NCBI GenBank assembly: GCA_020721585.1
Contig: DYMK01000006.1
Span: 74,901-117,018, forward strand
Source of the DNA: Sulfuricurvum sp.
GTDB taxonomy: Bacteria; Campylobacterota; Campylobacteria; Campylobacterales; Sulfurimonadaceae
Length of the DNA: 42,118 nucleotides
Reading direction: 5' to 3'
In this document: in pieces, positions 3,848-8,502 of the stretch
Position numbering within the stretch: position 1 is the stretch's first letter
Layout of the letters: each line of letters starts with the position of its first letter
The notes under the pieces: generated by a model
The model's input: the letters and a program-made list of their open reading frames with translations, nothing else
The model's database searches: none
What the model was told of the DNA's origin: nothing
Made by a program: the position numbers and the translations under genes

Positions 3848-3892
3848 AATATCCATTACACGGTTATAGCCCCCCATCTCACTCGGTTTCGC

Positions 3893-4295
3893 TATAATCC
3901 CTGCTCCCTACCATTATCCGCTCTCCAAGTTATAGCCCCCCATCTCACTCGGTTTCGCTATAATTTAATGCTATTCCGTCACGTTCAAATATTTTGTTAT
4001 AGCCCCCCATCTCACTCGGTTTCGCTATAATTTAATGCTATTCCGTCACGTTCAAATATTTTGTTATAGCCCCCCATCTCACTCGGTTTCGCTATAATTA
4101 CTGCAGGTAAAACAGCAGCACTTGGGTTGTTATAGCCCCCCATCTCACTCGGTTTCGCTATAATTATAGTCAACATCGATACTAATTCCCTGCGTTATAG
4201 CCCCCCATCTCACTCGGTTTCGCTATAATTGGTGGACTAAGTCCACGTCGATTTCAGGGGTTATAGCCCCCCATCTCACTCGGTTTCGCTATAAT
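3893..4295 (+). promoter_or_regulatory. Intra-repeat -10 boxes (TATAAT at the end of every repeat)
   Basis: The last six bases of every repeat are TATAAT (first at 3893-3898, last at 4290-4295), the consensus sigma70 -10 hexamer. In Neisseria and Campylobacter type II-C arrays, crRNAs are known to start inside spacers from promoters carried by the repeats; the same is inferred here. No clear -35 box is visible. Confidence 0.6.
3965..4098 (+). repeat. Tandem duplication of one spacer-repeat unit
   Basis: The 67-bp unit 3965-4031 (31-bp spacer plus repeat) is repeated exactly at 4032-4098. Both spacers start TTAATGCTATTCC and end CAAATATTTT. An exact copy points to recombination or slippage between repeats rather than two independent acquisitions. 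Confidence 0.97.
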
Positions 4296-4304
4296 ACCAT
4301 CTCG

Positions 4305-4326
4305 AAAAAACCCCGTACCACGGGGG
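4305..4326 (-). terminator. Intrinsic terminator of the cas operon
   Basis: On the minus strand a CCCCGT / ACGGGG stem with a 3-nt loop is followed directly by six T residues (complement of 4305-4310). It lies just past the cas2 stop and before the array. It would end cas9-cas1-cas2 transcription before it runs into the array, which reads the other way. Confidence 0.8.
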
Positions 4327-4363
4327 TTTGTCACGGTTTTTTTCACAAAAAAATCTCCGAAAA

Positions 4364-4687
4364 TCAGAACAAAAGCAGCTGTTTTGAACCAATTTTTTCC
4401 TCTTTTTTATCCGTTCCGACCAAAATTTTCATCCGTTCAAACTGCGTATTGGTAATAATCATCGCGCGGACGTTCCCTTTTGGGGGGAGGTTTGTTTCTA
4501 ATTGTAACATATACCGTTCGGCAGTATCTTGTCCCTTGCAAATACGACAATAGACCGAAAATTGGAGCATATCGTACCCATTTTTGAGGAGATAGGTATG
4601 AAATTTGGTATAGGCTTTGCGCTCTTTTTTCGTCGCGGTAGGAAGATCAAAAAAAACCATAAGTCGCATAAATCGCTCCTGTGTCAT
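4364..4687 (-). CDS. cas2: CRISPR-associated endonuclease Cas2
   Basis: A 107-aa Cas2 of the type II kind with the N-terminal ferredoxin-like strand MRLMVFFDLPT, where the Asp is the conserved metal ligand. It continues with YTKFHTYLLKNGYDMLQFSVYCR and LPPKGNVRAMIITNTQFERM. In intact systems Cas2 forms the spacer-integration complex with Cas1. The reading frame is full length and undamaged. Its start overlaps the end of the broken cas1 by 4 nt. With Cas1 disabled, this Cas2 probably has no working partner encoded here. Confidence 0.95.
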   Translation of the reverse strand: MTQERFMRLMVFFDLPTATKKERKAYTKFHTYLLKNGYDMLQFSVYCRICKGQDTAERYMLQLETNLPPKGNVRAMIITNTQFERMKILVGTDKKEEKIGSKQLLLF

Positions 4688-5239
4688 ATAAAACTCACTG
4701 TCTGAATGAGGGTGGGGTCTTTGGCTTTGGTCGCTCGTAATAAGGATTGGGCGGTAAGCTCACACGCGTAAGGGAGGGTAGTCTCCATCGCATCCACGCG
4801 GCAGGGCATGGTCATAAGGTCAAAAAGGTGGGTTTTGTACCGCATATCCAGCATAAGAGGGAGTTCCTCCCCATCCTCATCGAGTAACTCACGGACGATG
4901 AGATCCACAAAGGGGCGGAAGGGTTCGATCATATCATCGGCAAGGTTAAACGCATTGAGTTCATTGCAATGGTGCCACCCCAGCTTGGCGCGAATGGGCA
5001 TGAAAGGGGAGCAACACACATGAGGGAATATGTTTCTCATCACAGATATAGGTGACCGCACCACTTAGGGCAAGGGCATCGATAAGGGGGGTGGTGAGGG
5101 TGGCTTGGCGTGTTTCGATCACGACACAGGAGAGGTCACTTAGGGGAATGGTGTACTCTTCACCATTATCCAATACTAATGAATCGTGTCGTAAACTAAG
5201 CCGTGCAGGGTGTGCGATGTGCAGTGTCCGCCATCCCAT
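4684..5239 (-). pseudogene. cas1: cas1 with large internal deletion and frame change
   Basis: The first 86 or so codons encode a normal type II-C Cas1 N-terminus (starting MGWRTLHIAHPARLSL and reaching CDEKHIPSCVLLPFHAHSRQ). The C-terminal part (LGWHHCNELNAFNLADDMIEPFRPF onward, to cas2) is in another frame. The join is near 4980-4986. Only 556 bp remain, against roughly 900 bp for the family, so about 110 codons are missing. The lost part should carry the conserved active-site Glu region (NxEAxxAxxYF type) and the NxxLNYGY helix; the His of the HH motif and the acidic MIEPFRP motif remain. The SD and the position 9 bp after cas9 are normal. The product cannot be a working integrase. Confidence 0.92.
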
Positions 5240-5248
5240 TATCGCCTC

Positions 5249-8200
5249 CTATCGTTTTCGTTTTTGGGTTTCTTGGGGTATTGTCCCCAACCGTTTTTCG
5301 CCACGGACTTCGTGGTAATAGCCCAGTGGATCGATGGTGTATTTTTTGACTTTGAGGGCATTCAATACATTCAATTGACAAGTATATTTTCCATTAATCT
5401 TTGTATTTATAAAAAATTCTTTTGCACCATTATCTATAGTATTGAGTAGTATGCTTGGGCCAATTAATTGCATAAAAAATCCTTTAACTTCTTTTGCTGG
5501 TTTATTAGCTGTTGCTTTTGTACTTATGCTAATAATTTCATCTTTATACAGGCTAAATAAAAATTGTGCATCTTCAGCAAGTTCTTCTCCATAGGCTGTA
5601 ATATTAGGCAACGCTTTTTTCGCAAAATCTACCACATAAATGGGGACGAGATAATATTTTCCCCTTTTTGTGAACACATCGACACGAGGCATATCACCAT
5701 TGTCACACATCCCTTTGCCACTGTTGACACTCACACCACGCCCTTTGTAATCGCTTGGACGTTGGATGGTCTCTTTGTGTGCCGCACCCGTTACACTCGC
5801 ACGCGGTGGTCGGCTGATCAAAAGGCGGTTAAACGGTATCTCTCGCCCATCTTTGGTGATAATGGTTTCGGTACGCTCTAGGGTGAGGGCTTCCTCTACC
5901 GCATGGCGAAAATGTTCCATGGGAGGGTTAAAAATCGGTTTAGCTTTTTCGTGGCGGGTCTCTTTTGCCTTATAATAATGAGAAAGTTTTTGCACCATTG
6001 ATTGGGTCGCAAACGCGATGACGATAGCATCAAGGGCGTGGTGGGTGTGGATATTACGATCTTTCATGTACCCCTCTATCCATCGGTAACGTAGCTCACT
6101 GGTGAGTTTTCCACTGCGCACTTGGATACGGAGTTTGTCATCGTCATGAGCAAGTTTCCAATACCGCTCGCAATAGCTTTTAATCGCTTTGGACATATAG
6201 CGGGTGTCGTTGAGATTACGGCTGAGAAACTCATTTTGGCTGTTGTCATCGAAATTCTTTTTAAGCAGTCGGCTTACTTTTCCTTTGCCCATTTTGGCAA
6301 GATTGGAATGGGTATTCATCCTCGCTTCAAAATGTTCCCATCGTAGGGCATCGTGACCAAACCACTCATAAGGGGTACGATTGGTTTTTTCTTGATTGGC
6401 TTGGGTCATGCACAAGACTTTATTGGCTTGGCTATCATCACCACTGCGACTGCGGGGGAGGATATGGTCTATTTCACAATACCCCTCATCGAAGAGAGAC
6501 TCAACTAAAATCTTCTCATTGGTGTAGGGACAAAATTCCCCTTGTTGGTCAAAGAGCCGTTTTTTGAGAATATTTTTGCGCGTGGGGGGAATGAGGGGGA
6601 AGTTTTCCGCCATCCATCGTTTGGTAGCGTCACGCTCTTTTTCATTTTTCAGCTGACCCTCTTTCATGGCGTTAATATCCGCTTGGGTATTGACCTCCCG
6701 TGCCAATTCAAAATGGACTTTGTCAAAGGTTCCGTATTTTTTGACCAACGCATTGGCGATTTTACGAAATTGGGCAAATGCGCGGATAACGGTGGGATTG
6801 AGAATCGCAATATCGGTTGCTTTGAGCGGTGGGAGAAAAATAGCTTTTTCTTGGGTTATTTTGGGAAGTAAACCATTGTCCATCGCATAATGTACCGCTT
6901 CATCATAACGTTGGTAGCCATCGCTCATGATGGAACTAATGATACGCATCGCTTTGAGGGAGAGGTTATTAAAATCGGTAAAAGTGATAGGATAAAGGGT
7001 CTCAATGAAATGAGGATCAAGAGAGAGCTTGGCAAGTTCCTCTTTTTTTTGCCCTTCGTCTTTGTAATAGGTGAGAACGGTTGCGATTTTATCGGCTAAA
7101 TCATTATTGGCTATAAAATGGTTAAATCCCTCATCTCCTAAAACTTTTTTAAAAGTAGCATGACCTTTGAGACTGATCCATGGTTTGGTCTCTGTCTCTT
7201 TGATAACGTTTTTCCATTCGGTCGTCTCCGATTTTTTGCTTTTGTACGATAACCCTTTAAATATCGTCGAAAAATCATTTTTGAGTCCTAAAAAATCACG
7301 CAACTGTTTGTAGTCGATTGTTGCTTTAGTGATGACAAAGTGCATCAGCTCATTAACCGTTTTGAGTTCAATGATTTTGCGTTCTTTTCCCTCATGATCG
7401 ACCACGACCGTAGCGAAAAATTTACCCAATGCCACAAATTTCTCCGCGGTAGGAGCCGATTTTGGAGCGCGTTTTTCGTGGGGGAAAAAGGTACATTTCC
7501 CGACCATGTTTTCGATACTTTGCATCGGGCGGACGTAAAGGGCGATAACTTTCCACGCGCTAAGGAGTTCATTGGTAGCAAGCGTACTACCAAGCTTTTG
7601 TTGTTTGTCAAAAATCACTTTCATCTCATTTTCCAAAAAATCACGCGGAATAGAGAGCTCATAATCGGGAATTTTTTTCTTTTGTTTTGGGTCATACACA
7701 TTGCGATTTCGTTTTTTGCCATTGTGCTGACGCTCACGCCAAAGCCATTCCCCTATCGAGAGACATCCCGCAGCTTCAAACGTCGCTTTTAACGCTTTTC
7801 CCGCTGTTTTGACTTTGCCACTCTCTTCATCGGTTTCATTATCCCCGATAAATTTATACCCCCGATGTTTAGCAATATGAATCATTACACGGGCAAGTTC
7901 GTTTCCGCTTAGGAGACGATAGAGTGCATCATGACGTAATTGCCACACATCGGTACGATTAGCAGGGCTGTTAAACATTCCATTATCCAAATCAAAATCA
8001 TTTTTTTGGAGGAGTCTATGGTCAATACAGAGTTTTTTGATTTGGTTCATCCGAACCCGTCGCCGTTTGATGACCCGACGAATACCGCGTGCATTGCGTC
8101 GCGCTTCATTAAGACTTTTATGATCTTTGGGGGTTTGAGCAGCGGTAAAAAGTCGTACACCGCATCCGACAATGCTATTATTTTCTTCATGTTCTGCATC

Positions 8201-8266
8201 ATGCTCGACAACCGCCCAGCCCAATGAACTAATTCCTAAATCTATCCCTAAAATTCTCTCTGTCAT
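5249..8266 (-). CDS. cas9: Type II-C CRISPR RNA-guided endonuclease Cas9
   Basis: An apparently intact compact Cas9 of 1005 aa. RuvC-I is ILGIDLGISSLGWAVV with catalytic Asp9. An Arg-rich bridge helix spans about 56-80 (RRNARGIRRVIKRRRVR). RuvC-II is KVHFELAREVN with Glu520. The HNH domain has CEIDHILPRSRSGD, with His601 the general base and Asn615 after it. RuvC-III is HTHHALDAIVIAF with His743 and Asp746. Together with tracrRNA and crRNA it should cut matching DNA; the PAM cannot be read from sequence. Codons about 896-973 in the PAM-interacting region are far more AT-rich than the rest of the gene. The gene is followed directly by the cas1 remnant and by cas2. Confidence 0.97.
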   Translation of the reverse strand: MTERILGIDLGISSLGWAVVEHDAEHEENNSIVGCGVRLFTAAQTPKDHKSLNEARRNARGIRRVIKRRRVRMNQIKKLCIDHRLLQKNDFDLDNGMFNSPANRTDVWQLRHDALYRLLSGNELARVMIHIAKHRGYKFIGDNETDEESGKVKTAGKALKATFEAAGCLSIGEWLWRERQHNGKKRNRNVYDPKQKKKIPDYELSIPRDFLENEMKVIFDKQQKLGSTLATNELLSAWKVIALYVRPMQSIENMVGKCTFFPHEKRAPKSAPTAEKFVALGKFFATVVVDHEGKERKIIELKTVNELMHFVITKATIDYKQLRDFLGLKNDFSTIFKGLSYKSKKSETTEWKNVIKETETKPWISLKGHATFKKVLGDEGFNHFIANNDLADKIATVLTYYKDEGQKKEELAKLSLDPHFIETLYPITFTDFNNLSLKAMRIISSIMSDGYQRYDEAVHYAMDNGLLPKITQEKAIFLPPLKATDIAILNPTVIRAFAQFRKIANALVKKYGTFDKVHFELAREVNTQADINAMKEGQLKNEKERDATKRWMAENFPLIPPTRKNILKKRLFDQQGEFCPYTNEKILVESLFDEGYCEIDHILPRSRSGDDSQANKVLCMTQANQEKTNRTPYEWFGHDALRWEHFEARMNTHSNLAKMGKGKVSRLLKKNFDDNSQNEFLSRNLNDTRYMSKAIKSYCERYWKLAHDDDKLRIQVRSGKLTSELRYRWIEGYMKDRNIHTHHALDAIVIAFATQSMVQKLSHYYKAKETRHEKAKPIFNPPMEHFRHAVEEALTLERTETIITKDGREIPFNRLLISRPPRASVTGAAHKETIQRPSDYKGRGVSVNSGKGMCDNGDMPRVDVFTKRGKYYLVPIYVVDFAKKALPNITAYGEELAEDAQFLFSLYKDEIISISTKATANKPAKEVKGFFMQLIGPSILLNTIDNGAKEFFINTKINGKYTCQLNVLNALKVKKYTIDPLGYYHEVRGEKRLGTIPQETQKRKR
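5350..5600. other. AT-rich segment inside the cas9 PAM-interacting region
   Basis: Hand counts give 14, 17 and 16 G/C per 60 bases at 5391-5450, 5461-5520 and 5521-5580 (23-28%). The flanks 5281-5340 and 5701-5820 are about 50% or more. The reading frame stays open. The segment encodes about residues 890-973, in the C-terminal PAM-recognition part of Cas9. It looks like a patch of different origin from the rest of the gene. Confidence 0.75.
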
Positions 8267-8310: not shown

Positions 8311-8324
8311 TCCCCCCTAGCCAA
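8296..8324 (-). promoter_or_regulatory. Predicted cas9 operon promoter
   Basis: Minus-strand TTGGCT (8324-8319) and TACAAT (8301-8296) are 17 nt apart, close to sigma70 consensus. They would start a transcript at about 8289, upstream of the cas9 ATG at 8266. The -35 box lies inside the start of the tracrRNA anti-repeat. Confidence 0.6.
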
Positions 8325-8410
8325 ACCGAGTGAGATTAGTGGGGCTATAATAAGAGGTTTCACGCTTTTCCTCGTAAAGCACTGCCCTACGTGGGCATCT
8401 GGTGGTTTTC
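8317..8410 (+). ncRNA. tracrRNA
   Basis: Bases 8318-8351 are an anti-repeat. GGGGCTATAAT (8341-8351) pairs with the first 11 nt of the repeat, with one G-U. ATCTCACTCGGTTT of the repeat pairs perfectly with the stretch before it, leaving a small 2x4 internal bulge, and a further GCTA/TAGC pairing follows one mismatch. Downstream come a GAGG/CCTC hairpin (8354-8373) and a TGCCC/GGGCA hairpin (8383-8397) leading to GGTGGTTTT. The GCxCTGCCC...GGGCATC tail resembles the Neisseria tracrRNA. The gene lies head-to-head with cas9. The 3' end is approximate. Confidence 0.9.
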
Positions 8411-8502
8411 CACACTAAAAAGCGTTCTTTTCCCTTTTGACCGCAACGTTTTCCATCGCTTAATTTTTTTAGTAAACCAGATTACCCTCAAAGGCTCTCT
8501 CC

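Follow-up and report, generated by a model that had tools for sequence, protein, structure and literature searches.

The type II-C CRISPR-Cas locus of a sulfur-oxidizing Sulfuricurvum sp. keeps an array and a full-length cas9 beside a cas1 that is visibly broken. It raises the question of whether such a locus can still acquire spacers, or can only use those that it already holds. The stretch of DNA analysed, referred to here as the window, is 42,118 nucleotides long. Our reading is that cas1 of this chromosomal locus was very probably inactivated by one 338-nt deletion between 4-nt microhomologies, with acquisition lost and the interference parts retained.

The minus strand of the window carries, from 5239 to 4684, a type II-C cas1 with a single clean 338-nt deletion. 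This pseudogene (4684..5239) is 556 nt long, whereas the gene measures 894 nt in each of four relatives that have it intact, two of them Sulfuricurvum sp. (L013, which is genome G009, and L014) and two Campylobacterales MAGs (L011 and L012). Each of the four reference genes is 891 nt plus the stop codon, that is, 297 codons in one unbroken frame. Their loci resemble that of the window in the order cas9-cas1-cas2-array, in a nearly identical 36-nt repeat and in Cas1, to which the window fragments are 63-90% identical; they differ in having the complete cas1. End-to-end alignment with these intact genes, which the preliminary description had proposed as a check, covered the first to the last codon and contained one gap only, of 338 nt. 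The loss corresponds to 112 codons plus 2 nt, with residues 90-201 gone, and thus shifts the frame. Native Cas1 residues 1-89 are followed by PLQ and a stop, which gives an N-terminal open frame of 92 aa (4961..5239, minus strand). From about residue 202 on, the gene is open in another frame (4684..4975, minus strand) down to its normal stop, a TGA that overlaps the ATG of cas2. The profile of type II Cas1, TIGR03639, has 278 positions; the match of the first open frame is confined to positions 1-88 (E 2e-17) and that of the second to 198-277 (E 6e-16), both scoring under the family cut-off. The Cas1 fold is therefore represented by its two ends in two frames, and no full-length chain spans the model. 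At the junction (4975-4972, minus strand) lies the 4-nt word GCAC, present there in single copy in the window and at both edges of the gap in L013 and L011, the two closest relatives. This pattern marks a deletion that joined two very short stretches of homology.

The catalytic residues were placed by aligning the protein with type II Cas1 chains of known structure. The catalytic Glu, E146 in the numbering of L013 (the NxE glutamate, which aligns with E149 in those structures), falls inside the lost segment. The other two active-site residues, His203 and Glu218, survive in the out-of-frame remainder only, and the Glu-His-Glu triad is present in no single polypeptide. For the type II-C system of Riemerella, mutating the corresponding residues abolished the nuclease activity of Cas1, and deletion of cas1 or of cas2 each abolished spacer acquisition (PMC6008519). 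The genome assembly, 99.9% complete in 112 contigs, was searched for a second type II Cas1 with TIGR03639 and for the general Cas1 family with PF01867; neither gave a match, and no Cas1 of any type was found there. A plasmid-borne cas1 could be missed, because the genome is a draft. Since the catalytic Glu, 112 residues and the frame are lost and no second cas1 was found, the sequence leads us to conclude with high confidence that spacer acquisition should be dead in this locus. There would be no functional Cas1-Cas2 integrase and no addition of spacers. The preliminary description had anticipated most of this: a cas1 lacking its middle and the region of the active-site Glu, with halves in different frames, about 110 codons or 340 bp short, and acquisition dead unless a second intact cas1 lay elsewhere. 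All of these points hold, and so does the existence of a junction, which lies some 8 nt away from the position first given (4980-4986).

The interference parts show no comparable damage. The cas9 gene (5249..8266, minus strand) encodes an uninterrupted, full-length protein of 1005 aa that matches TIGR01865 (E 5e-188) and contains the RuvC and HNH catalytic motifs (GIDLG, HFELARE, EIDHILP and HHALDAI). Cas2 is encoded by an intact open frame of 107 aa (4364..4687, minus strand). Neither csn2 nor cas4 was found in the operon (4364-8266); its cas genes are cas9, the cas1 remnant and cas2 only, as befits type II-C. The tracrRNA lies upstream of cas9 (8318..8440, plus strand, 3' end approximate) and consists of an anti-repeat (8318-8353), which matches the array repeat, and a structured tail. 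It is conserved in three loci, those of the window, L011 and L012, and the stem of its tail varies on both sides with the pairing kept (ACGC/GCGT in the window, AAGC/GCTT in the relatives). The duplex of repeat and anti-repeat has an energy of -46 kcal/mol. The fold of the tail by itself does not outperform that of shuffled sequence (z -1.1), and an Rfam search returned nothing at threshold. Interference is plausibly intact; it is judged here purely from the anatomy of the locus, because no spacer target was found. Cas9, the tracrRNA and the five distinct spacers could still cut matching DNA.

The array (3863..4295, plus strand) comprises seven identical 36-nt repeats and six spacers. Every repeat terminates in GCTATAAT, a -10-like element, as would be expected of II-C repeats that bear their own promoters. 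New spacers enter II-C arrays at the last repeat (PMC12080349), and by this polarity the entry end is here the cas2 side, where the segment that separates cas2 from the last repeat (4296..4363) has a layout similar to that of the relatives, with a hairpin and a AAAATCAGAACAA motif. Spacers 2 and 3 (3965-3995 and 4032-4062) are identical, leaving five distinct spacers, and the two adjacent 67-bp spacer-repeat units (3929-4062) are exactly identical, a tandem duplication. Recombination can add or remove array units without Cas1. The duplication indicates that it acted on this array at some time, and the array would now alter by this route only. The preliminary description was right to call cas9, cas2, the tracrRNA and the array undamaged. 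Its term 'frozen' for the array overstates the case, because one unit has been duplicated exactly and recombination acts without Cas1. Its statement that the array can still cut its targets goes too far as well, since no protospacer was found in the viral, phage, plasmid and same-genus collections searched. Nor can the small size of the array be taken as evidence of freezing, as it had been, because six spacers are likewise found in L014, whose cas1 is intact (L011 has 12 and L012 has 14).

Targets of the spacers were sought in several collections. Exact PAM-side seeds of 20-21 nt from all five distinct spacers had no match in IMG/VR, comparison with phages and plasmids gave chance-level matches only, and no convincing protospacer was found in genomes of the same genus. 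Self-targeting was not seen either: within its own genome, no spacer matched anything beyond the array and the tracrRNA. Spacer 4 (4099-4128) has apparent matches in several same-genus genomes, which were rejected as chance, being mostly to a conserved DEAD-box helicase ATP-binding motif with 6-7 mismatches. The contigs of the viral collection were also searched for this cas9 and this repeat, and none carries either.

Synonymous sites are saturated in comparison with the nearest relatives, which renders dN/dS uninformative. Lineage-specific amino-acid changes were therefore used, and those private to each of three lineages were counted. For the window, L013 and L011 respectively, the counts were 43, 41 and 46 in cas9; 7, 6 and 10 in cas2; 3, 5 and 2 in the N-terminal part of cas1; and 14, 3 and 5 in its C-terminal part. 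The excess in the C-terminal part has p values of ~0.009 relative to cas9 and 0.010 relative to the N-terminal part, values that come from small counts and several comparisons. Only this out-of-frame remainder is accelerated; cas9 has no excess. The acceleration agrees with a loss of constraint and with a deletion of fairly recent date. The lesion would be younger than the split from the sequenced relatives, and it looks recent, neither cas1 piece having any added stop codon.

If the lesion is recent, cas9 may be intact for that reason only, and the whole locus, interference included, may be silent and decaying. The empty target searches are compatible with such a general decay, as is the state of the gene in the order, where cas9 scores over the cut-off yet is interrupted or partial in 13 genomes, compared with 74 in which it is full length. 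However, Cas9, the tracrRNA and all the repeats are undamaged, and cas9 shows no acceleration. We therefore regard silent interference as unlikely here, although it is the possibility that deserves most attention after the loss of acquisition alone.

The order-level sample comprised 399 genomes, in 74 of which cas9 is an unbroken frame of 900 aa or more. With damage classes taken from family-search rows and not from curated gene models, cas1 is missing or damaged in 7 of these 74 genomes, about one in ten. Five have no cas1 match over the cut-off (G000, which is the genome of the window, G121, G146, G247 and G406) and two a partial match (G276 and G316). Like the window, the six genomes other than this one combine a full-length cas9 frame with a truncated, fused or missing cas1; unlike one another's and the window's, their lesions are different and independent. 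G406 (L044, 5623-6162) has about 55 N-terminal Cas1 residues fused in frame to a complete Cas2, and keeps cas9 and a short array of four repeats, the last partly degenerate. G276 (L049, G276:C9:92000-102500) has a frame of 1227 aa made of Cas9 without its C-terminal end and Cas1 from about residue 90; the N-terminus of Cas1 is absent and the active-site triad is kept, an apparent natural Cas9-Cas1 fusion formed by deletion. Just the first ~98 Cas1 residues are left in G121, a C-terminal loss, and G316 has a late cas1 frameshift. Neither cas1 nor cas2 was detected at the loci read in G247 and G146. The latter genome has two inverted cas9 copies of equal family score about 22 kb apart (L046 and L047, G146:C1:690000-722000), with no cas1 or cas2 detected near the pair.

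The opposite state, a cas1 scoring as intact and full length with an interrupted or split cas9, was found in five genomes (G151, G169, G264, G312 and G395), and both genes are damaged in G255. With 7 cas1-damaged and 5 cas9-interrupted genomes, the modules decay both ways, and loci that have Cas9 but no working acquisition thus recur. The recurrence of independent cas1 losses beside a full-length cas9 could also mean that loss of acquisition was selected, for less autoimmunity or a fixed useful memory, and did not arise by drift. Yet the reverse loss recurs too, and 7 against 5 does not establish a bias towards either gene, though of the two cas1 offers the shorter target; selection for the loss appears doubtful.

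The draft state of the genome leaves room for an artefact of assembly or strain mixture, in which the gene is really intact and ~340 bp were dropped by the assembler or binner. Assembler collapse requires a long repeat. The two edges of the junction have just 4 nt in common, and in the intact relatives no exact repeat inside cas1 exceeds 13 nt. Moreover, the missing middle was found on no other contig of the assembly, and the C-terminal piece has already accumulated its excess of amino-acid changes. An artefact is for these reasons highly improbable.

The quiet N-terminal part of cas1 is something that simple loss of constraint over the whole gene would not predict. There is a very slim chance that the 92-aa peptide is still made and selected for another role, for instance Cas2 binding or regulation of the locus, because the N-terminal part is unaccelerated whereas the out-of-frame C-terminal part is accelerated. 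Although acquisition genes can be supplied across CRISPR types (PMC8092290), service of the array in trans by a Cas1 from elsewhere in the cell deserves almost no credence, with no Cas1 of any type in the assembly and no further genomic copy of the array repeat except in the tracrRNA.

Inactivation of cas1 by one small deletion, with the interference parts kept, makes this locus a clean example of a natural separation between the writing of CRISPR memory and its use. It adds a data point on how frequently acquisition goes before interference does, and it cautions that an array beside cas9 need not mean a locus that is still adaptive. Models of CRISPR function are unchanged by this deletion, and the locus is a fresh example of an already known, ordinary CRISPR decay. 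A published case is that of Campylobacter coli clade 3, which has cas9 and repeats only (PMC4607530). As in the Sulfuricurvum locus, Cas9 and the repeats are kept there, the acquisition genes are non-functional and the genome has no other cas genes. The two differ in that cas1 and cas2 are wholly absent from C. coli clade 3, whereas the window keeps an intact cas2 and a remnant of cas1.
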